Below are positions 18,925-28,406 of a stretch of 53,956 nucleotides of DNA, one piece after another. Below the pieces are notes generated by a model. The model did no database searches. It was not told where the DNA came from and saw nothing but the letters and a program-made list of their open reading frames with translations. Position numbers and translations under genes: made by a program. Each line of letters starts with the position of its first letter. Positions within the stretch are counted from its first letter, which is position 1. This stretch comes from an uncultured Pelagibacteraceae bacterium (GTDB lineage: Bacteria > Pseudomonadota > Alphaproteobacteria > Pelagibacterales > Pelagibacteraceae): NCBI GenBank assembly GCA_902514695.1, contig CABXRR010000004.1, positions 1-53,956 on the forward strand. Direction: 5' to 3'.

Positions 18925-20259
18925 GTGAGTAAGGTCGTACTAATAAAAAATAAAATTGAAAATTTTAAAAAAAAATCAATAAATGTTGATGGTGATAAAT
19001 CACTTAGTATTAGATTCGTGTTATTGTCCTCTTTAAGCAAGGGCAGAAGTGTTGCATCAAATTTATTGAGATCTGAGGATGTTGATAGTGCCATCAAAAG
19101 TATTAGAAAATTAGGAATTAAAATAAAAATTAAAAATGATTATTGTGAAGTGATTGGAAAAGGTCTGTATGGATTTAATTATAAAAAAAATTTAGTTTTA
19201 AATTTAGGAAATTCAGGTACTTCTGCAAGATTAATAACTTCGATGTTATCTAATACAAATTATTGGGTAAAAATCACTGGTGACAAATCTTTAAAAAGAA
19301 GAGACATGAGCAGGATTATTAAACCACTTAAATCTTTCGGTATTAATTTCAAAAACAATAGATCAAAACTTCCAATATGGGTAAAGGGACCAAAATTATT
19401 AAAACCTATAAAATACACTGAAAATTTAGGCTCTGCTCAGTGTAAGTCAGCAGTAATGATTGCTGCTCTTAAAGCTAATGGAAAAACTCAATTAAAATGT
19501 GTGCAGTCTAGAACTCATACGGAATTAATGTTTAAAAATGTTTTAAAAATCCCAATCAAATTAGAAAAGAAAAAAAATTTTGATATTATTGAGATAGATG
19601 GAATGAATGAATTTAGAGGGTTTAATTACAAGATTCCAGGTGATATTTCATCAGCTTCATTTTTTATAGTTCTAACTTTACTATCTAATAAAAATAGTCT
19701 CTCTATTAAAAATGTAAATATCAATCCATCAAGAACAGGAATAATTAAAATTCTGAATATGATGGGAGCTCAAATAAAGATTTTCAATAAAAAAAGTTAT
19801 AAAGGTGAGCCTACTGCTGATATATTTATACAATCAAACAAAAGGTTGAAAGCAATAAACCTCAATCCAAAATTTAACAGTTCTGCTATTGATGAATTCT
19901 TATTAATTTTTTTAGTTGCAAGTATGTGTAGGGGAATTAGTACTTTTAAAAATCTCTCTGAATTAAACAAAAAGGAATCTAAAAGATTAGATTGGGGTAT
20001 AAAAATCTTAAAGATGATGAATATTAAAGTAAAAAAAATAAATAATAATGGTTTAAAAATTTGGGGAAATCCAAATTTAAAGATTAAAAAATCATTTGAA
20101 ATTAAAAAATTTTTAAAGGACCATAGGATATTTATGCTTTCAACTATTGCAGCTCTCACTTTAGGTGGCAAGTGGAAAATTCATGATGCTTCTTGCTTTA
20201 AAACTTCTTTTCCAAAATATTTAGAAATATTAAAAACTTTAGGAGCAAAAATTAAATGA
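18925..20259 (+). CDS. aroA: 3-phosphoshikimate 1-carboxyvinyltransferase (EPSP synthase), GTG start
   Basis: INVDGDKSLSIRFVLLSSL, LGNSGTSARLITSML, GSAQCKSAVMIAALKANG. Confidence 0.93.
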   Translation: MSKVVLIKNKIENFKKKSINVDGDKSLSIRFVLLSSLSKGRSVASNLLRSEDVDSAIKSIRKLGIKIKIKNDYCEVIGKGLYGFNYKKNLVLNLGNSGTSARLITSMLSNTNYWVKITGDKSLKRRDMSRIIKPLKSFGINFKNNRSKLPIWVKGPKLLKPIKYTENLGSAQCKSAVMIAALKANGKTQLKCVQSRTHTELMFKNVLKIPIKLEKKKNFDIIEIDGMNEFRGFNYKIPGDISSASFFIVLTLLSNKNSLSIKNVNINPSRTGIIKILNMMGAQIKIFNKKSYKGEPTADIFIQSNKRLKAINLNPKFNSSAIDEFLLIFLVASMCRGISTFKNLSELNKKESKRLDWGIKILKMMNIKVKKINNNGLKIWGNPNLKIKKSFEIKKFLKDHRIFMLSTIAALTLGGKWKIHDASCFKTSFPKYLEILKTLGAKIK

Positions 20260-20903
20260 GTAAATTTATTCAGGTTGCAATAGATTCTCCTGCTGCAGCT
20301 GGTGCGGGAACTCAAGCAAAATTAATCGCAAAACATTATAATTTACTTTATCTTGATACTGGCAAAATATATAGATTTATTGGAAATTTAAAAATTAAAA
20401 ATAAAAAAGAGTTTAATTATAATTTAGTTAAAAAAAAAATTAGAAAATTAAAAATTCATAATTTACAAAGTAAAGTTTTATTGTCTAATAAAGTTGCTAT
20501 AGAAGCATCTATAGTAGCTAAAGATAAAAAAATTAGAAAAATTGTACATAATTTTCAAATTAAATGTGCCTACCGACCTTCAAAAAAATTTAGTGGTAGT
20601 ATTCTAGATGGAAGAGATATTACTAGTGTTATCATGAAAAACGCTATGTTCAAATTTTTTATTACTGCAAATATTAAAACTAGAGCCTTAAGGAGATATA
20701 AAGAGCTAAAATTACTCAACAAAAGAATAACGTACAAAGAGGTGCTAAAAAGCATCAAAATACGGGATAAAAACGACTATAATAGAAAAATCTCACCTTT
20801 GAAGAAAACAAAAGATTCAATCTTGATTAATACTACAAATTTAACTAAAAGATCATGTTTTTTAAAAATTAAACAAATAATGGATAAACAACTGAACAAT
20901 TAA
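20256..20903 (+). CDS. cmk: Cytidylate kinase
   Basis: VAIDSPAAAGAGTQAKLIAKHYNLLYLDTGKIYR, SILDGRDITSVI, ITANIKTRALRRYKEL. Confidence 0.9.
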   Translation: MSKFIQVAIDSPAAAGAGTQAKLIAKHYNLLYLDTGKIYRFIGNLKIKNKKEFNYNLVKKKIRKLKIHNLQSKVLLSNKVAIEASIVAKDKKIRKIVHNFQIKCAYRPSKKFSGSILDGRDITSVIMKNAMFKFFITANIKTRALRRYKELKLLNKRITYKEVLKSIKIRDKNDYNRKISPLKKTKDSILINTTNLTKRSCFLKIKQIMDKQLNN

Positions 20904-22621
20904 TGGAAATTTATAAAGATTTATCAAGCACAGCATCAAAAGAATTCGAACAGCTCTTAAACAGTCAACTTTCAAAAACTAAAATTGAAGAAGGTAAAGT
21001 TATTGAAGGTAAAATTAATAAAATAACTGAAAAGTTTGTTTTTTTATTTATTGAAGGATTAAAAAGTGAACCGGTTTTAGATATTAATGAATTAAAAAGT
21101 ATGGGCTGGAATGATAAAATTAAGATTGGTGAAAAAATTCCAGTTCTTCTTGAAAGAATTGAGGATAAAAACGGAGAAGTTTTAGTATCTGCTAGTAAAG
21201 CACAGAAAATTAAGGGTTGGGATAAGCTTGTTGAAGCTTATGAAAAAAATGAACCTATTATGGGAAAAATTACATCAAAATGTAAAGGAGGTGCTATCGT
21301 CGAGCATATCGATACTGGTTCATTAATGTTTTTGCCAGGATCACAAATTAGCGATAAACCATTAAAAGACATTAGTCATTTAATGAATGAGCCTCAAAAG
21401 TTTGCAGTAATAAAGCTCGATAAAATTCGTGGCAACTGTTGCGTTTCTCGAAGAGAAATAATTTCTTCATTTAAAAAAGAAGATAAAGCCAAGATAATAG
21501 AAAAATATAAAGTTGGTGATATCATTAAAGGAGCAGAGGTTAAAGGTTATAGTTCTTTTGGTTGTTTTTTTAATGTCAATGGAGAACTAGATGTATTGGT
21601 TCACTTACAAGAAATTTCTTACTCAAGGGTTAATCATCCTGATGAAGTATTTAATATAGGCGAAAAACATGATTTGAAAGTAATTTCTGTTGATAAAGAA
21701 AAATTACAAGTTGGTTGTTCTGTAAAACAACTTTCTCCAGACCCATTTGAACATATTGAAAATTACGAATTAAAAAAAATTTACAAAGTTAAAGTAGTAA
21801 AGATTATGGACTTTGGAGCATTTTGTGAATTAGAGCCTGGACTAACAACACTTTTACATAGTAGTGAGTTAAGTTGGACAAAAAAAAATGTTACAGCTAA
21901 AAAATTATTTAAGGTTGGTGATGAAATAGATTGTGTAATAACTGAAATTGATAAAGAAAAACGAAGAGTAGCAATTTCGCATCGATTAACTAAAGATAAT
22001 CCTTTTGATGTATTTGAAAAGAAATTCCCAGTAGGCACTGTTGTTGAGGGTAAAGTTGTTAATAAAAATGAGTACTCACTATTTGTTAACATTGAAGATT
22101 TAGAAATAGATGCATTCCTTCATTGTAATGATTTAACATATTTAAATAATGGTGAAGATGAATTAAAAAAATATAAAAAAGGTGATAAAATTAAAGTAAA
22201 AATACTAGAAATAAAAGTTTCTGAACAAAAAGTTAGAGTTGGCCTAAAACAAACCCAAAGTGATCCACTTGATTGGTTTGGAGATAAAAAAATAAATCAA
22301 ACAATTACAACAAAAATTATTTCGATCGATAATAAAGGTTTAGTTGTAAGACCAATAGGATGTGAAATGGATTTTTTAATAAAAAAATCTCAAATAGCAA
22401 TTAATGCTGCTGATGCAAGACCTTCAAGGTTTACAGGAGGTGAAAGTATCGATTGTGCAATATCTGATTTAGATCTGAATAAGAGAAAAGTAGGATTAAG
22501 TATAAAACTTTTAGAGGAAATTGAGAAAAAAGAAGCTTTAGAAAAATATGGCACTGAAGGATCTGGAAAGAATTTACCCTTTTCATCATTATCAGAGGAT
22601 TTAAAAAAGAAAGACAAGTAA
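20903..22621 (+). CDS. rpsA: 30S ribosomal protein S1
   Basis: Repeated S1/OB domains, e.g. VKVVKIMDFGAFCELEPGLTTLLHSSELSWTKKN; order cmk-rpsA-ihfB. Confidence 0.97.
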   Translation: MEIYKDLSSTASKEFEQLLNSQLSKTKIEEGKVIEGKINKITEKFVFLFIEGLKSEPVLDINELKSMGWNDKIKIGEKIPVLLERIEDKNGEVLVSASKAQKIKGWDKLVEAYEKNEPIMGKITSKCKGGAIVEHIDTGSLMFLPGSQISDKPLKDISHLMNEPQKFAVIKLDKIRGNCCVSRREIISSFKKEDKAKIIEKYKVGDIIKGAEVKGYSSFGCFFNVNGELDVLVHLQEISYSRVNHPDEVFNIGEKHDLKVISVDKEKLQVGCSVKQLSPDPFEHIENYELKKIYKVKVVKIMDFGAFCELEPGLTTLLHSSELSWTKKNVTAKKLFKVGDEIDCVITEIDKEKRRVAISHRLTKDNPFDVFEKKFPVGTVVEGKVVNKNEYSLFVNIEDLEIDAFLHCNDLTYLNNGEDELKKYKKGDKIKVKILEIKVSEQKVRVGLKQTQSDPLDWFGDKKINQTITTKIISIDNKGLVVRPIGCEMDFLIKKSQIAINAADARPSRFTGGESIDCAISDLDLNKRKVGLSIKLLEEIEKKEALEKYGTEGSGKNLPFSSLSEDLKKKDK

Positions 22622-22643
22622 AATTAGAAACTAAGTAGTAAAA

Positions 22644-22934
22644 TTGGCAGTTGTAAAATCTAAACTTTTAAAAGACCTATCAAAAAACTATCCAAATTTT
22701 TTAAAAAAAGATCTTGAAAAATTCACAAATATTATTTTGAAAGAAATTAAGAATACTCTTAAAAAAGGTGACAGGGTAGAATTAAGAGGATTTGGAGTAT
22801 TTTCAACTAAAACTCAAAAACCTAGGATTTCTAGGAACCCAAAAACAGGTGAAAAAGTTAATACTCCAGAAAAAAAAACAATTCACTTTAAAATGTCAAA
22901 AGACTTGTTTAAAAAATTAAACGATGAAACATAA
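22644..22934 (+). CDS. ihfB: Integration host factor / HU family protein, probable beta subunit (TTG start)
   Basis: GDRVELRGFGVFSTKTQKPRISRNPKTGEKVNTPEKKTIHFKMSKDL, downstream of rpsA. Confidence 0.92.
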   Translation: MAVVKSKLLKDLSKNYPNFLKKDLEKFTNIILKEIKNTLKKGDRVELRGFGVFSTKTQKPRISRNPKTGEKVNTPEKKTIHFKMSKDLFKKLNDET

Positions 22935-23616
22935 AAACATTTTTGTTGCCTGTGATACTTCTAATTTAAGCGAAATAAAAAAAATTATAAAACAAACACA
23001 GACAAACAAGCTCAAAACTATACCGAAATTTGGAATACAATTTTTTTACTCTAAAAACGGAAGAAAATTTTTAGAAAATTTTAAAAAAGATTTTTGGCTA
23101 GATCTAAAAATTAATGATATACCACAAACAGCATTATCAGCAGTAGATAGTTTAAAAGATTTAAAAAATTGTAAATTTATTACTGTCCATACGAACGGTG
23201 GGCTTGAAATGTTAAAAGCTATTAAAAAAAAAGCTAAATCAATTAATAAAGATTTAAAAGTACTTGGTGTTACAATTTTAACAAGTCTTAATAATAAATC
23301 ACTTAAAGAAATAGGTTATACGAAATCTGTAAAACAATTAGTTTTAAGACAAGTCGGTCTAATAAAAAAATCAGGTTGTGATGGTGTTGTTTGCTCTGCA
23401 CAAGAGGCAAAAATAATTAAAAAAAAATATAAAAACTTGTTTATAGTAACTCCAGGAATAAGGTTGCCTGGTGATAAAGCTAATGATCAGTTGAGAGTAA
23501 TGACTCCAAATGATGCTTTTAAAAATAAAGTATCTGGAATTGTAATAGGGAGATCTCTTATTAGAGGAAATATTAAAAAAAATATTCAAAGATTAATTGA
23601 TCACTTAAATAAATGA
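22924..23616 (+). CDS. pyrF: Orotidine 5'-phosphate decarboxylase
   Basis: FVACDTSNLSE, FWLDLKINDIPQTA, FITVHTNGG, GDGVVCSAQEA, IVTPGIRLPGDKANDQLRVMTP. Confidence 0.93.
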   Translation: MKHKNIFVACDTSNLSEIKKIIKQTQTNKLKTIPKFGIQFFYSKNGRKFLENFKKDFWLDLKINDIPQTALSAVDSLKDLKNCKFITVHTNGGLEMLKAIKKKAKSINKDLKVLGVTILTSLNNKSLKEIGYTKSVKQLVLRQVGLIKKSGCDGVVCSAQEAKIIKKKYKNLFIVTPGIRLPGDKANDQLRVMTPNDAFKNKVSGIVIGRSLIRGNIKKNIQRLIDHLNK

Positions 23617-24242
23617 TCAAGGGATCCAAAATCTGTGGTATTTCAGATCATGAGACTCTTAATTTTATAATTAATCATCCCTGCCCACCTCAATTTATTG
23701 GTTTCATCTGCAACTATAAAAAAAGTCCAAGATTTGTTGATGTTGATAAACTGAATAAGCTATTAAAATTAGATAAAAAAAAATCAAAATTTGTGGCAGT
23801 TCTTGTTAAACCTAATCAAGATATTTTAGAAAAAATTAAGCTACTTCCATTTGATTATTATCAAATTTATGATTGCTCACCCGAGGAAATAAAAATAATT
23901 AAAAAAAAATATAATAAAAAAATTATTACTGCCTTAACTATAAAAAATGAAAATGATGTTAAAAAATATCACTTATTTTCTGAGGTTACTGATATTTATT
24001 TGTTTGATAGCAAGGGTTATGAGAAAAGTATGACTTTTGATCATGAGCTTATTGAAAATATCAAAGTCAATAAGCCATTAATGATAGCAGGCAACATACA
24101 AATAAATGATGATCTTGAAAATTATAAAAAAATAGCAGATATTATAGATATATCTGGGGGTCTTGAAACTTCTGGGGTAAAAGATAAATCCAAAATAGAT
24201 ATATTTTTAAATAAAATAAAACAGGTACAAAATGAGACTTAA
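23613..24242 (+). CDS. trpF: Phosphoribosylanthranilate isomerase (divergent)
   Basis: KICGISDHETLNFI, IGFICNYKKSPRFV, DISGGLETSGVKDKSKIDIFLNKIKQ; adjacent to trpBA. Confidence 0.87.
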   Translation: MIKGSKICGISDHETLNFIINHPCPPQFIGFICNYKKSPRFVDVDKLNKLLKLDKKKSKFVAVLVKPNQDILEKIKLLPFDYYQIYDCSPEEIKIIKKKYNKKIITALTIKNENDVKKYHLFSEVTDIYLFDSKGYEKSMTFDHELIENIKVNKPLMIAGNIQINDDLENYKKIADIIDISGGLETSGVKDKSKIDIFLNKIKQVQNET

Positions 24243-25464
24243 AAGAGGGATTCCATTAATTGACCAACATGATCAGCAAGGCTTTTGGGGTGGTAAATTT
24301 GGAGGAAGCTTTATTCCTGAAACTTTAAAAAAACCTGTAGAAGATTTAACAAATCAATTTAAAAAACTGAGAAAAAATAAAAAATTTTTAAAAAAAAGAG
24401 ATTTTTATTTCAAAAATTATGTCGGAAGTCCTACTTCGTTTATAAAACTTGAGAATCTAACAAATCATTTAGGGGGTGCTCAAATTTGGGCAAAAGTTGT
24501 ATCAGAAGCAAATGGAGGTGCACACAAAATATATAATGCAACTGTCCACGCTCTAATCTGTAAAACAATGGGTAAAAAATATATCATAGGTGATACAGGT
24601 GCCGGTTATGCGGGCAAAATGCTGAGCATGGCTGCTAAAAAATTTGGCCTAAAATGTAAAATATTTATGGGTGCAAAAGATATTAAAAGACAAAAACCTA
24701 ACTGTGATGCAATGAGAAAAAATGGAGCTGAAATAGTTCCAGTTTATTCAGGCAGTCAAACGCTAGTTGATGCTGTAAGTGAATGTATGAGATATTGGGT
24801 ATCTAATTGTAATAATACTCATATGTGCGTAGGTAGCACTGTGGGTCCAAATATATTTGTTAAGATATGTGGGTGGAGTACTGCACAAATCTCTAGAGAA
24901 TTAAAACTTCAATTAAAATCGCAATTTAAAAAAATTCCTAAGAAAATAAAATTAATAAATTGTGTTGGTGGAGGTAGCTCTGCCTACGGTTTTTGGAGCG
25001 AATTTATTGATTATAAAAAAAGCCAAATTGAATTAATTGGTGTTGAAGCTGGTGGACCAAAAAATTCTAAACTTCATGCAGCACCATTAAGTAGAAATGC
25101 TAAAATTGGAATTCTACATGGAGCAGCATCTTATCTTTGCCAAAATAATGAAGGGCAAATAAATGATACTGAGTCTATTAGCGCTGGGTTAGATTATCCT
25201 GGAGTAAGCCCTATTCATTGTTTTTTAAAAGATTCTAAAAGAGCTAGATATACTTATGCAACGGATGAAGAGGCTCTTAATGCACATGTCATGGTTACTA
25301 AATATGAAAATTTAAATCCTAGTCTTGAGCCAAGCCATGCATTTGCGGAAGCTATTAAAATTGCCCCCAAGCTAAGTAAGGATACCATCATAATTGTGAA
25401 CTCATGTGGTGATGCAAAAAAAGACAGGGATATTTTGAAAGAAAGATTAGGTAAAAGAAAATGA
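24232..25464 (+). CDS. trpB: Tryptophan synthase beta chain (divergent active site)
   Basis: GGKFGGSFIPETL, GGAHKIYNATVHAL (PLP lysine), CVGGGSSAYGFW, SISAGLDYPGVSP, PSLEPSHAFAEAIK. Confidence 0.9.
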   Translation: MRLKRGIPLIDQHDQQGFWGGKFGGSFIPETLKKPVEDLTNQFKKLRKNKKFLKKRDFYFKNYVGSPTSFIKLENLTNHLGGAQIWAKVVSEANGGAHKIYNATVHALICKTMGKKYIIGDTGAGYAGKMLSMAAKKFGLKCKIFMGAKDIKRQKPNCDAMRKNGAEIVPVYSGSQTLVDAVSECMRYWVSNCNNTHMCVGSTVGPNIFVKICGWSTAQISRELKLQLKSQFKKIPKKIKLINCVGGGSSAYGFWSEFIDYKKSQIELIGVEAGGPKNSKLHAAPLSRNAKIGILHGAASYLCQNNEGQINDTESISAGLDYPGVSPIHCFLKDSKRARYTYATDEEALNAHVMVTKYENLNPSLEPSHAFAEAIKIAPKLSKDTIIIVNSCGDAKKDRDILKERLGKRK

Positions 25465-26261
25465 ATTCTTTATTAAATCAAGCATTTCAAAATGCAAAAA
25501 AAGAAAACAGACCTGCTTTACTTACTTATACTGTTGCTGGTGACAATACTAAAAAGAAATCATTAGAAATTCTCAAATCAATTTCTAATTATGCAGATAT
25601 TTGTGAACTAGGATTTCCACATAACACTCCTATTGCTGACGGAGGCCAAATCCAAACAAGTGCTTATAGAGCAATAAAGAATGGGATTAAAATTAATGAT
25701 GTTTTTTCTATAGCAAAAGATTTTAAAAAATTTAAAAAATCTAAACCGATTATTTTGATGGGTTATTACAACATGATTTTTCAGTTTGACGAAAATAAAT
25801 TTTTAGATAAATGCAAAAATGCGAAAGTTGATGGGTTAATTGTAGTTGATCTACCTTATCCAGAAAATAGGAAATTTGCTTCAAAATGTAAAAAAAGAGG
25901 AATTAACTTTATTCAATTAGTTTCCCCAACAACATCATCTACAAGATTGAAAAGAATAATCAAAGATTCTCATGATATGATTTATTATATAAGTATGCTT
26001 TCAACCACTGGAGGTAAATTAAAAGTTTCACCTAAAAAAATTTTAAAAGAGTACAAGAAAATTAAGAATCAAAATAAGTCTAAAAATGTTGTTATAGGAT
26101 TTGGAATCACCAAAAAAACAATAAAATCATTAAAAAAAGCTGATGGATTAGTAGTTGGGAGTGCAATTTGTAAAGAAATAACAAATTCTATTAAAAAAAG
26201 ACAAAATACTGTCATAAATGTTATTAATGTTGTTAGAAAATTAAGAAATGAAATAAAATGA
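25461..26261 (+). CDS. trpA: Tryptophan synthase alpha chain (divergent)
   Basis: ICELGFPHNTPIADGGQIQTSAYRAIKNG, GYYNMIFQF, LIVVDLPYPENRKF, VSPTTSSTRLKRI, IGFGITKKTIKSLKKADGLVVGSAI. Confidence 0.92.
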   Translation: MNSLLNQAFQNAKKENRPALLTYTVAGDNTKKKSLEILKSISNYADICELGFPHNTPIADGGQIQTSAYRAIKNGIKINDVFSIAKDFKKFKKSKPIILMGYYNMIFQFDENKFLDKCKNAKVDGLIVVDLPYPENRKFASKCKKRGINFIQLVSPTTSSTRLKRIIKDSHDMIYYISMLSTTGGKLKVSPKKILKEYKKIKNQNKSKNVVIGFGITKKTIKSLKKADGLVVGSAICKEITNSIKKRQNTVINVINVVRKLRNEIK

Positions 26262-27187
26262 ACTGGATTACTAAAATAATAAAAGCAGGTGAAAAGATTA
26301 AATCTGCAATACATAAGAGAGCTACTAAGGAAGATATTGCAAATAGTGACTGGACTTCATGTTGTAAAGGACCAATACTTAAAAAAAATTTAGAGGATAA
26401 TCTTTGGGTTTGCCCAGATTGTAATAAACATCATAGAATAAAACCAAAACAAAGATTTGATATTTTGTTTGGAAAAAATAATTATGAAATATTTAAAACT
26501 CCCATACCAAAGGATGACCCTTTAAATTGGACAGACTCAAAGCCATATAAAGATAGATTAAAAAGTGCCAGAAAAAAAACTGGTTTAAATTGCGGAATGA
26601 TGGTTGTTTGTGGAACAATCAACAATATTAAAGTCACTGCTGTAGCTTCTGACTTTGATTTCTTGGGTGCATCAATGGCAGCTGCAGAAGGTGAAGCTTT
26701 TTTGTACGGTGTTCAATATGCAATTGAAAATAAAACTCCATTTATATGTATTAGCGCTGGGGGTGGAATGAGAATGATGGAAAGTTTAGTTTCTTTATCT
26801 CAAATGACCAGAACAACTCTTGCTATAAATGAACTAAAAAAGAATAATCTTCCTTACTTAGTTTGTATAACAGATCCTACCGCAGGAGGAATTACTGCTT
26901 CTTATGCGATGCTTGGGGATATTCATTTAGCAGAGCCTGGTGCTTTAATTGCTTTTGCAGGAGCCAGGGTAATACAAGGAACAGTTAAAGAAGAATTACC
27001 AGAAGGATTTCAAAAAAGCGAATATGTTGAAAAGACAGGTTTTGTGGATTTAATTGTTGAAAGAAAAGAACTCTCTGAAAAAATAGGAACTATATTATCA
27101 ATATTGTTAAAGAAAAACTCTGTTATAAGCACTGATGAAAATGAAATTACAGAAAATTCTCAGTCGCTTTCTAAAGTTGCATCCTAA
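26258..27187 (+). CDS. accD: Acetyl-CoA carboxylase carboxyltransferase subunit beta
   Basis: WVCPDCNKHHRI zinc ribbon, MAAAEGEAFLYGVQYAIENKTPFICISAGGGMRMMESLVSLSQM, ITDPTAGGITASYAMLGDIHLAEPGALIAFAGARVI. Confidence 0.97.
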   Translation: MNWITKIIKAGEKIKSAIHKRATKEDIANSDWTSCCKGPILKKNLEDNLWVCPDCNKHHRIKPKQRFDILFGKNNYEIFKTPIPKDDPLNWTDSKPYKDRLKSARKKTGLNCGMMVVCGTINNIKVTAVASDFDFLGASMAAAEGEAFLYGVQYAIENKTPFICISAGGGMRMMESLVSLSQMTRTTLAINELKKNNLPYLVCITDPTAGGITASYAMLGDIHLAEPGALIAFAGARVIQGTVKEELPEGFQKSEYVEKTGFVDLIVERKELSEKIGTILSILLKKNSVISTDENEITENSQSLSKVAS

Positions 27188-28406
27188 GGAAATAGATCTT
27201 AGCTTAGATCGTATTAAGCTTCTCTGTGAAAAATTAAGCAACCCTCAGGATAAGATTAAAGCAATTTCTGTTGTGGGTACTAATGGTAAACAATCCACGA
27301 TAAATGCACTTTTTTCAATACTCAAAGAAGCAAATATAAAATGTAATGTTTATACTAGCCCTCATATTCAAAGAATTAATGAGAGATTTATTTTTAACAA
27401 TCAAGAATTAGAAGATGAAAAACTAGCTGATCTTTTTGAAGAAGTTGAAAAGATTAATGATAACCAAAAAATTACATTTTTTGAAATCTTATCAACATGT
27501 TTTTTTTATAAAGCGGCCCGATACCCTGAGAATTTAAATTTAATTGAAGCAGGTTTATTTCATAGATTTGATGCAACTAATATCTTGAAAAAAAATTTAG
27601 CAAGTGTTGTTACATCAATTAGCAAAGACCATTTAGACTGGCTCCCAAAGAATGAGCAAACGATAGAAAAAATTGTATTTGAAAAAACATCATCACTTTT
27701 AAATTCAAATATCATTGTCTCTAAACAAAACTCGATTAATACAACTGAATGTATTAAAAAAACAACTTATAATAATTCAGCAAAAAAATTATTCTTTAAT
27801 GAAGATTTTAGTTATTCTAATGGTGAGAATGGTTTTTTTTATTATGAGGATAAATTTGGAGGATTAAAACTTCCTTTACCAAATATTTTGGGTCAATTTC
27901 AACTAGAAAATATATCTACTGCAATTGCAACTCTAAGATTGTTAGATATTGATATCAAAGATAATGATATCAAAAATGGAATAAGAAAAATTAAGAGTAT
28001 CGCAAGACTACAAGAGATAAAGTCTGGAAAATTAAAAGAATTAATAAAAGATAATCGATTAATTATAGATGGAACTCACAATGAGGATGGTGCAAGAGTG
28101 TTAAATGAATATCTTCAAACTCTAAATTGCAACAAGCATATTATTGTGGGAATGATGGCTAACAAGGATCATGAAAAATATATAAGTTATTTTAAAGATA
28201 TTTCTTCTTTGACGACAATAGATATTCCTGGACAACCAAATTCTATAAGTGGAAAAGATTTAAAAGAGAAATTTAAAAGTATTACTAATGTTCAATACAA
28301 AGAAAGTATTGAACAAGCGATTGAGTCCATACCCTTAAAAGAAAATGATTTAGTGATTATAACTGGATCTTTATATTTAGCGGGTGAAATATTGAATTTA
28401 AATTAG
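27135..28406 (+). CDS. folC: Folylpolyglutamate synthase / dihydrofolate synthase
   Basis: FLKLHPKEIDLSLDRIKLL, VVGTNGKQSTINALFSIL, SKDHLDWL, DGTHNEDGARVL; overlaps accD by about 50 nt. Confidence 0.92.
   Translation: MKMKLQKILSRFLKLHPKEIDLSLDRIKLLCEKLSNPQDKIKAISVVGTNGKQSTINALFSILKEANIKCNVYTSPHIQRINERFIFNNQELEDEKLADLFEEVEKINDNQKITFFEILSTCFFYKAARYPENLNLIEAGLFHRFDATNILKKNLASVVTSISKDHLDWLPKNEQTIEKIVFEKTSSLLNSNIIVSKQNSINTTECIKKTTYNNSAKKLFFNEDFSYSNGENGFFYYEDKFGGLKLPLPNILGQFQLENISTAIATLRLLDIDIKDNDIKNGIRKIKSIARLQEIKSGKLKELIKDNRLIIDGTHNEDGARVLNEYLQTLNCNKHIIVGMMANKDHEKYISYFKDISSLTTIDIPGQPNSISGKDLKEKFKSITNVQYKESIEQAIESIPLKENDLVIITGSLYLAGEILNLN

Follow-up and report, generated by a model that had tools for sequence, protein, structure and literature searches.

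Tryptophan synthase is a model system in which PLP chemistry, the channelling of substrates and allostery between subunits are studied. Glu109 of its beta subunit (TrpB) is treated as essential for indole activation. Alpha-Asp56 and beta-Lys167 form a well-studied inter-subunit salt bridge, which has been examined by site-directed mutagenesis. In the Salmonella enzyme, it is the Glu109 carboxylate that stabilises the charge on N1 of indole while the C-C bond forms; in the closed state, Gln114 hydrogen bonds to Asn145 and Arg148, this state is stabilised by Arg141-Asp305, and the indole site is framed by His115 and Phe306 (PMC9512447). The laboratory mutant beta-E109D, which carries this one exchange in an otherwise canonical pocket, is altered in substrate specificity and catalytic activity, going by how Brzovic et al. 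1992c title their paper (in PMC9512447); no open paper on TrpB E109D or on alpha-D56/beta-K167 in tryptophan synthase was found in our literature search. In eudicots, a TSB-like paralogue beside the working TSB carries mostly Ala (Ser or Pro in Solanaceae) at the equivalent of Glu109 and Glu at that of Asp305, and it binds and activates TSA; bacterial TrpB has been turned to phenols by an exchange of the Glu109 equivalent for Gly, Ala or Ser (PMC12727527). With respect to marine bacteria, a distinct trpB_1 cluster around HTCC1062 was reported from the Sargasso Sea metagenome, in the accessible part of the paper without an analysis of the active site, of TrpA co-variation or of cassettes (Kagan et al. 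2008, PMC2395257).

The current study concerns a window of 53,956 nucleotides, i.e., the whole stretch of DNA that was analysed, which represents one contig of a 754-kb Pelagibacterales (SAR11) assembly (68% complete, 39 contigs); its nearest named relatives belong to Pelagibacteraceae / Candidatus Pelagibacter. Its trpB gene belongs to a clade, here called type A, in which position 109 is Asp, and which is not the canonical Glu109 TrpB.

The trp locus of the window and the active site of its TrpB

The open reading frame proposed in the initial annotation, as well as each motif quoted for it, is present in the sequence, and the gene string around trpB is the standard one. The same gene order as in the run at 18925..28406 is given for P. 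ubique by Kagan et al. 2008 (PMC2395257). The features are as follows, with residue numbers of the Salmonella enzyme after the prefix beta or alpha.

18925..28406, + strand: gene run including trpF-trpB-trpA (profile matches, neighbouring-gene comparison)
23613..24242, + strand: trpF, phosphoribosylanthranilate isomerase, overlapping the trpB start (PF00697)
24232..25464, + strand: trpB, predicted type A ("Asp109") tryptophan synthase beta subunit, 410 aa (ORF, TIGR00263, alignment, AlphaFold2 model)
24526..24528, + strand: Lys99, beta-Lys87, PLP Schiff-base lysine, kept (alignment; 155/155 SAR11, 54/54 canonical)
24592..24594, + strand: Asp121, beta-109, catalytic carboxylate position, Glu in canonical TrpB (alignment)
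24607..24612, + strand: Tyr126-Ala127, beta-114/115, substrate-carboxylate loop, canonical Gln-His (alignment)
24688..24690, + strand: Arg153, beta-Arg141, kept, closed-state salt bridge partner of Asp305 (alignment)
24766..24768, + strand: Val179, beta-167, canonical Lys and partner of alpha-Asp56 (Val in 155/155 type A)
25192..25194, + strand: Asp321, beta-Asp305, kept (alignment)
25327..25329, + strand: Glu366, beta-Glu350, kept (alignment)
25405..25407, + strand: Cys392, beta-377, adjoining the PLP ring nitrogen (Cys common at 377 in canonical TrpB)
25461..26261, + strand: trpA, alpha subunit (TIGR00262, 210 bits, cut-off 102)
25626..25628, + strand: alpha-Thr56, canonical Asp and partner of beta-Lys167 (alignment)

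The protein passes the TrpB1 model TIGR00263 with a margin of only 0.05 bits (392.5 bits, cut-off 392.45). Membership in TrpB2, a TrpB-like PLP enzyme of the same superfamily, was rejected, since the score against TIGR01415 (89.7 bits) is far below the cut-off of 518.85. An AlphaFold2 model reached a pLDDT of 93.4 with an alignment of 46 sequences (76 with 13 sequences) and superimposes on P. furiosus TrpB with a TM-score of 0.92 and an rmsd of 1.2. Type A thus has the fold in common with the TrpB1 enzymes of Salmonella, E. coli and P. furiosus, and it also shares with them Lys87, the GGGS phosphate loop, Arg141-Asp305, Glu350, the trpFBA operon and a TrpA partner with catalytic Glu49/Asp60.

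The window protein aligns to solved TrpBs without gaps across the active site; the numbering is that of Salmonella TrpB, whose sequence was checked at the landmarks K87, E109, D305, E350 and S377. This alignment bears out the initial annotation with respect to the retained PLP lysine, the exchange of Glu109 for Asp (residue D121, with no Glu aligned at position 109) and the loss of the QHG, HPYP and RGD motifs. The exchanges comprise E109D, Q114Y, H115A, N89Y and N236S, as well as R379D, G380A, D381K, P196I, P198V and R202G. Cys at position 377, which had been regarded as unusual, turned out to be ordinary, because 33 of 54 canonical proteobacterial TrpBs have Cys and 21 have Ser.

For comparison, 155 SAR11 type A TrpBs, a redundant set in which some loci represent one genome fetched twice, were set against the 54 canonical TrpBs, which had been drawn from the samples of the class and of the phylum; since the latter are the best matches to the query in their samples, the contrast is conservative. 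Position 109 is Asp in 155/155 type A sequences and Glu in 54/54 canonical ones, and the type A motif DTGAGYAG stands where canonical TrpB has ETGAGQHG. Lys87 occurs in its GxHK context in all 155 type A proteins, which also retain Arg141 and Asp305 (155/155 each), Glu350 and Lys382. Conversely, H115, N89, N236, K167, P196, R202 and R379, each found in 54/54 canonical TrpBs, are absent or nearly so in type A. Altogether, 36 of the 104 canonically invariant positions are changed in type A and 37 in the window protein. When members of the canonical set were left out one at a time, the median number of such changes was 0 and the highest 11. Gln114 and Arg148 are changed in most members, Tyr114 being paired with Ala148 or Ser148 in 153 sequences. 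In the wider type A, as seen with locus L231 (55% identical), positions 114 (Y/M) and 115 (A/N/Q/F) vary, but position 109 does not, and D109 is held in every additional, more distant type A locus that was read.

Distribution of type A and its TrpA partner

SAR11 bacteria are among the commonest cells in the ocean. Type A was found in about 335 of the 399 genomes of the window's genus (counted from the table, fragments included), as well as in five more genera of the same family and in a second family that had been sampled; the remaining genomes of the genus either have a different TrpB type or TrpB2 alone, or are incomplete assemblies without a TrpB. The substitutions described above are not the oddity of one genome, since they have become fixed in most of SAR11. 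Beyond SAR11, no type A was found among 288 genomes of the class and 199 of the phylum, where the best match scored 337 bits, compared to at least 457 bits for complete type A genes. In a quick tree with long branches and no outgroup, type A forms one clade with a stem of 1.2 changes per site. SAR11 locus L112 encodes a fully canonical TrpB (0 changes at the invariant positions) that nests among canonical alphaproteobacterial sequences. The trpB_1 cluster of Kagan et al. 2008 (PMC2395257) is very probably the same clade as type A. The clade has accordingly been known since 2008, and no residue-level description of it was found in the literature.

The window TrpA has kept Glu49, Asp60, Tyr175 and Thr183, which are present in 154/154 type A loci, and shows the changes Asp56 to Thr, Phe54 to His and Gly181 to Ser. 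The K167V exchange in TrpB, matched by D56T in TrpA, had been overlooked in the initial annotation. Type A combines Thr, Ala or Cys at alpha-56 with Val at beta-167, so the salt bridge is gone on both sides. Among 207 TrpA/TrpB pairs, an acidic residue at alpha-56 accompanies Lys167 in 45 and a non-acidic one accompanies Val or Leu in 162, with 0 exceptions. These counts are not phylogenetically independent; instead of 162 separate losses, they stand for a minimum of two, in types A and C. Glu56/Lys167 is retained in two lineages, type B and L113/L246 (see below). Since the loss on the alpha and beta sides is joint and without exception, the two subunits have co-evolved as a complex, and the co-variation favours a functional alpha-beta complex whose coupling is rewired and speaks against repurposing. 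Judging from the gene sequences, the only linked TrpB of most SAR11 is the Asp109 form with the TrpA contact altered on both sides.

Probable function of the Asp109 enzyme and alternative readings

Type A trpB is under strong purifying selection (median dN/dS of 0.036 over 1403 unsaturated pairs). In seven complete single-contig genomes (G405, G266, G091, G416, G423, G212, and G522), type A is the only TrpB, no TrpB2 exceeds the cut-off, and trpC is present; G405 is presumably HTCC1062 and G266 presumably HTCC7211. Both strains have been cultivated in an artificial seawater medium that contained pyruvate, glycine, methionine and vitamins and for which no tryptophan is listed (PMC8437039). Since type A is the sole copy and these strains grow without added tryptophan, it would be the enzyme that produces tryptophan. 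Similarly, Kagan et al. 2008 (PMC2395257) report one trpB in P. ubique and conclude from this single-copy status that the gene must work.

The gene of the window therefore very probably encodes a functional beta subunit of tryptophan synthase, from a variant TrpB1 clade that uses Asp109. Of the two readings offered in the initial annotation, the divergent tryptophan synthase is favoured by the TrpB fold, the trpF-trpB-trpA operon, a TrpA that has co-evolved and whose alpha active site is intact, and the fact that strains growing without tryptophan have no other trpB in their complete genomes. As the enzyme almost certainly still makes tryptophan, the observations point to a textbook enzyme that nature has redesigned and not to a novel function. 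The reported alteration of the Salmonella E109D mutant was counted against this reading, as was the margin of only 0.05 bits for TIGR00263. That mutant has the same single catalytic change as type A, whereas the change in SAR11 is fixed, sits in a remodelled pocket and is accompanied by a co-evolved TrpA; since E109D alters the canonical enzyme, the changes around Asp109 are presumably compensatory. In addition to Asp109, type A differs from TrpB1 in the loss of Gln114-His115, the exchange of Asn236 for Ser, and Lys167 to Val with alpha-Asp56 to Thr.

In the proposed mechanism, PLP on Lys87 would form the aminoacrylate from L-serine as usual, and indole would be delivered by the adjoining co-evolved TrpA. 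The Asp109 carboxylate would pair with indole N1 while the C-C bond is formed, and Tyr114, Ala115, Gly108 and about 30 more changes would have reshaped the pocket to suit the shorter side chain. The Arg141-Asp305 closed-state switch is kept; with the alpha-Asp56/beta-Lys167 bridge and the Gln114-Arg148 link gone, subunit coupling would have to use other contacts. The data show the exchanges, their fixation and constraint, the co-evolution with TrpA and the lack of a further TrpB; from these we infer that the product in vivo is tryptophan, that Asp109 does the job of Glu109, and that allostery is rewired.

A functional synthase might additionally have a broadened or second reaction with another nucleophile or donor, which would be the reason for the pocket change. 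The altered substrate specificity in the title on Salmonella E109D, the remodelled loop that binds the substrate carboxylate, and the argument that SAR11 cells rely on enzyme multifunctionality (PMC8437039) would fit this idea, but the gene string is standard and neither a partner gene nor the genomic context suggests another substrate, so that we regard it as unlikely.

The other reading of the initial annotation, a repurposed PLP enzyme with a changed nucleophile or amino-acid donor that no longer makes tryptophan, found no support and is very unlikely. The alteration of 36 of 104 canonical invariants, several of them in the indole and carboxylate sub-sites, and the bacterial TrpBs turned to phenols at the same position would be in its favour, but the carboxylate is retained by Asp, trpC and trpF are present, and the sole TrpB of strains grown without tryptophan has a co-evolved TrpA with intact catalytic residues. 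A second canonical trpB, the search for which had been suggested as a check, was found neither in the 68%-complete genome of the window nor in the complete type A genomes examined.

Even less probable is a pseudoenzyme whose beta chain merely activates TrpA to release indole, in analogy to eudicot TSB-like. The latter resembles type A in the changed Glu109 equivalent and the retained TrpA/TSA partnership, but it lacks a carboxylate at 109 and has Glu for Asp305 (PMC12727527), whereas type A has both Asp109 and Asp305. Moreover, TSB-like is a paralogue beside a working TSB, and no second TrpB1 or TrpB2 was found in the complete type A genomes tested. Finally, a degenerating gene or a sequencing or assembly artefact, conceivable in a fragmentary assembly such as that of the window, was rejected and has a negligible probability given the occurrence of type A in most genomes of the genus, the invariant D109 (155/155 and all further loci read) and a dN/dS near 0.04.

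Type A represents a natural experiment on which parts of tryptophan synthase are required, in that a natural clade from one of the most abundant groups of ocean bacteria has Asp in place of Glu109 and retains neither half of the alpha-beta salt bridge. It also offers a new starting point for the engineering of biocatalysts, in which position 109 controls the choice of the nucleophile.

Other TrpBA types and their putative exchange

Within the present sampling, type A alone departs from Glu109; two further types are nevertheless also far from canonical TrpB. Type B (loci L138, L137, L140, L111, L114, and L139; also L243 and L247) has kept Glu109, has Gln or Thr for Asp305 and lacks a few residues near 160-163; its TrpA has Glu60, and it is the only TrpB in the complete genome G012 (L111). 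Type C (L141, L142, L143, L144, L145, L148, and L115) has kept Glu109 and has Lys141 and Asn115. A source outside SAR11 was found for neither type A nor type C, for which the best match scored 272 bits.

Some Pelagibacter genomes that are closely related elsewhere differ in trpB and trpA, both of which have been exchanged jointly at one fixed position. The genomes G266 and G402 (L131 and L138) are 94% identical in rpsA, 92% in accD and 85% in folC, but only 36% in trpB and 28% in trpA. The reverse applies to L246 from the genus of the window and L113 from another family, both with Asn for Asp305 and the motif ETGAGAHL, which share 80% identity in trpB and 73% in trpA, compared to 41% in accD and 40% in folC, and which are therefore indicative of horizontal trpBA transfer within the order. 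The simplest reading would be that trpBA has undergone homologous replacement and has been transferred from one SAR11 lineage to another, i.e., a cassette exchange. It is a tentative and rather doubtful extension that SAR11 keeps several radically different, co-evolved TrpBA pairs (types A, B and C) that move as cassettes between species and families at a single locus, each with rewired catalysis and allostery, and maybe with its own substrate range or resistance to a tryptophan synthase inhibitor driving the exchange.

The neighbouring genes accD and folC have been swapped as well in L141, L142, L148, L140 and L242; L141 and L131 share 47% and 32% identity in these genes, respectively, and 89% in rpsA. 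As accD and folC are replaced by distant versions, the replacement hotspot would extend downstream of trpBA.

A few Pelagibacter genomes have true TrpB2 genes separate from the trp locus. These unlinked TrpB2s with intact Glu109 are present in G024, G023, G045 and G108 (L120, L121, L244, and L245) and in G328, score about 622 bits against TIGR01415 in G024, G108 and G328, occur in some cases beside type A and are confined to a minority of SAR11. In G238 (96% complete) and G153 (90%), trpC is present and neither trpF nor TrpB was found, reflecting either an assembly gap at the locus or a partial loss of the pathway. In L235 (G753, complete, 1,284,727 bp), trpB is intact, but trpA is cut short to a frame of 177 aa and trpC falls into two separate frames, which may be due either to frameshift errors or to decaying trp genes.
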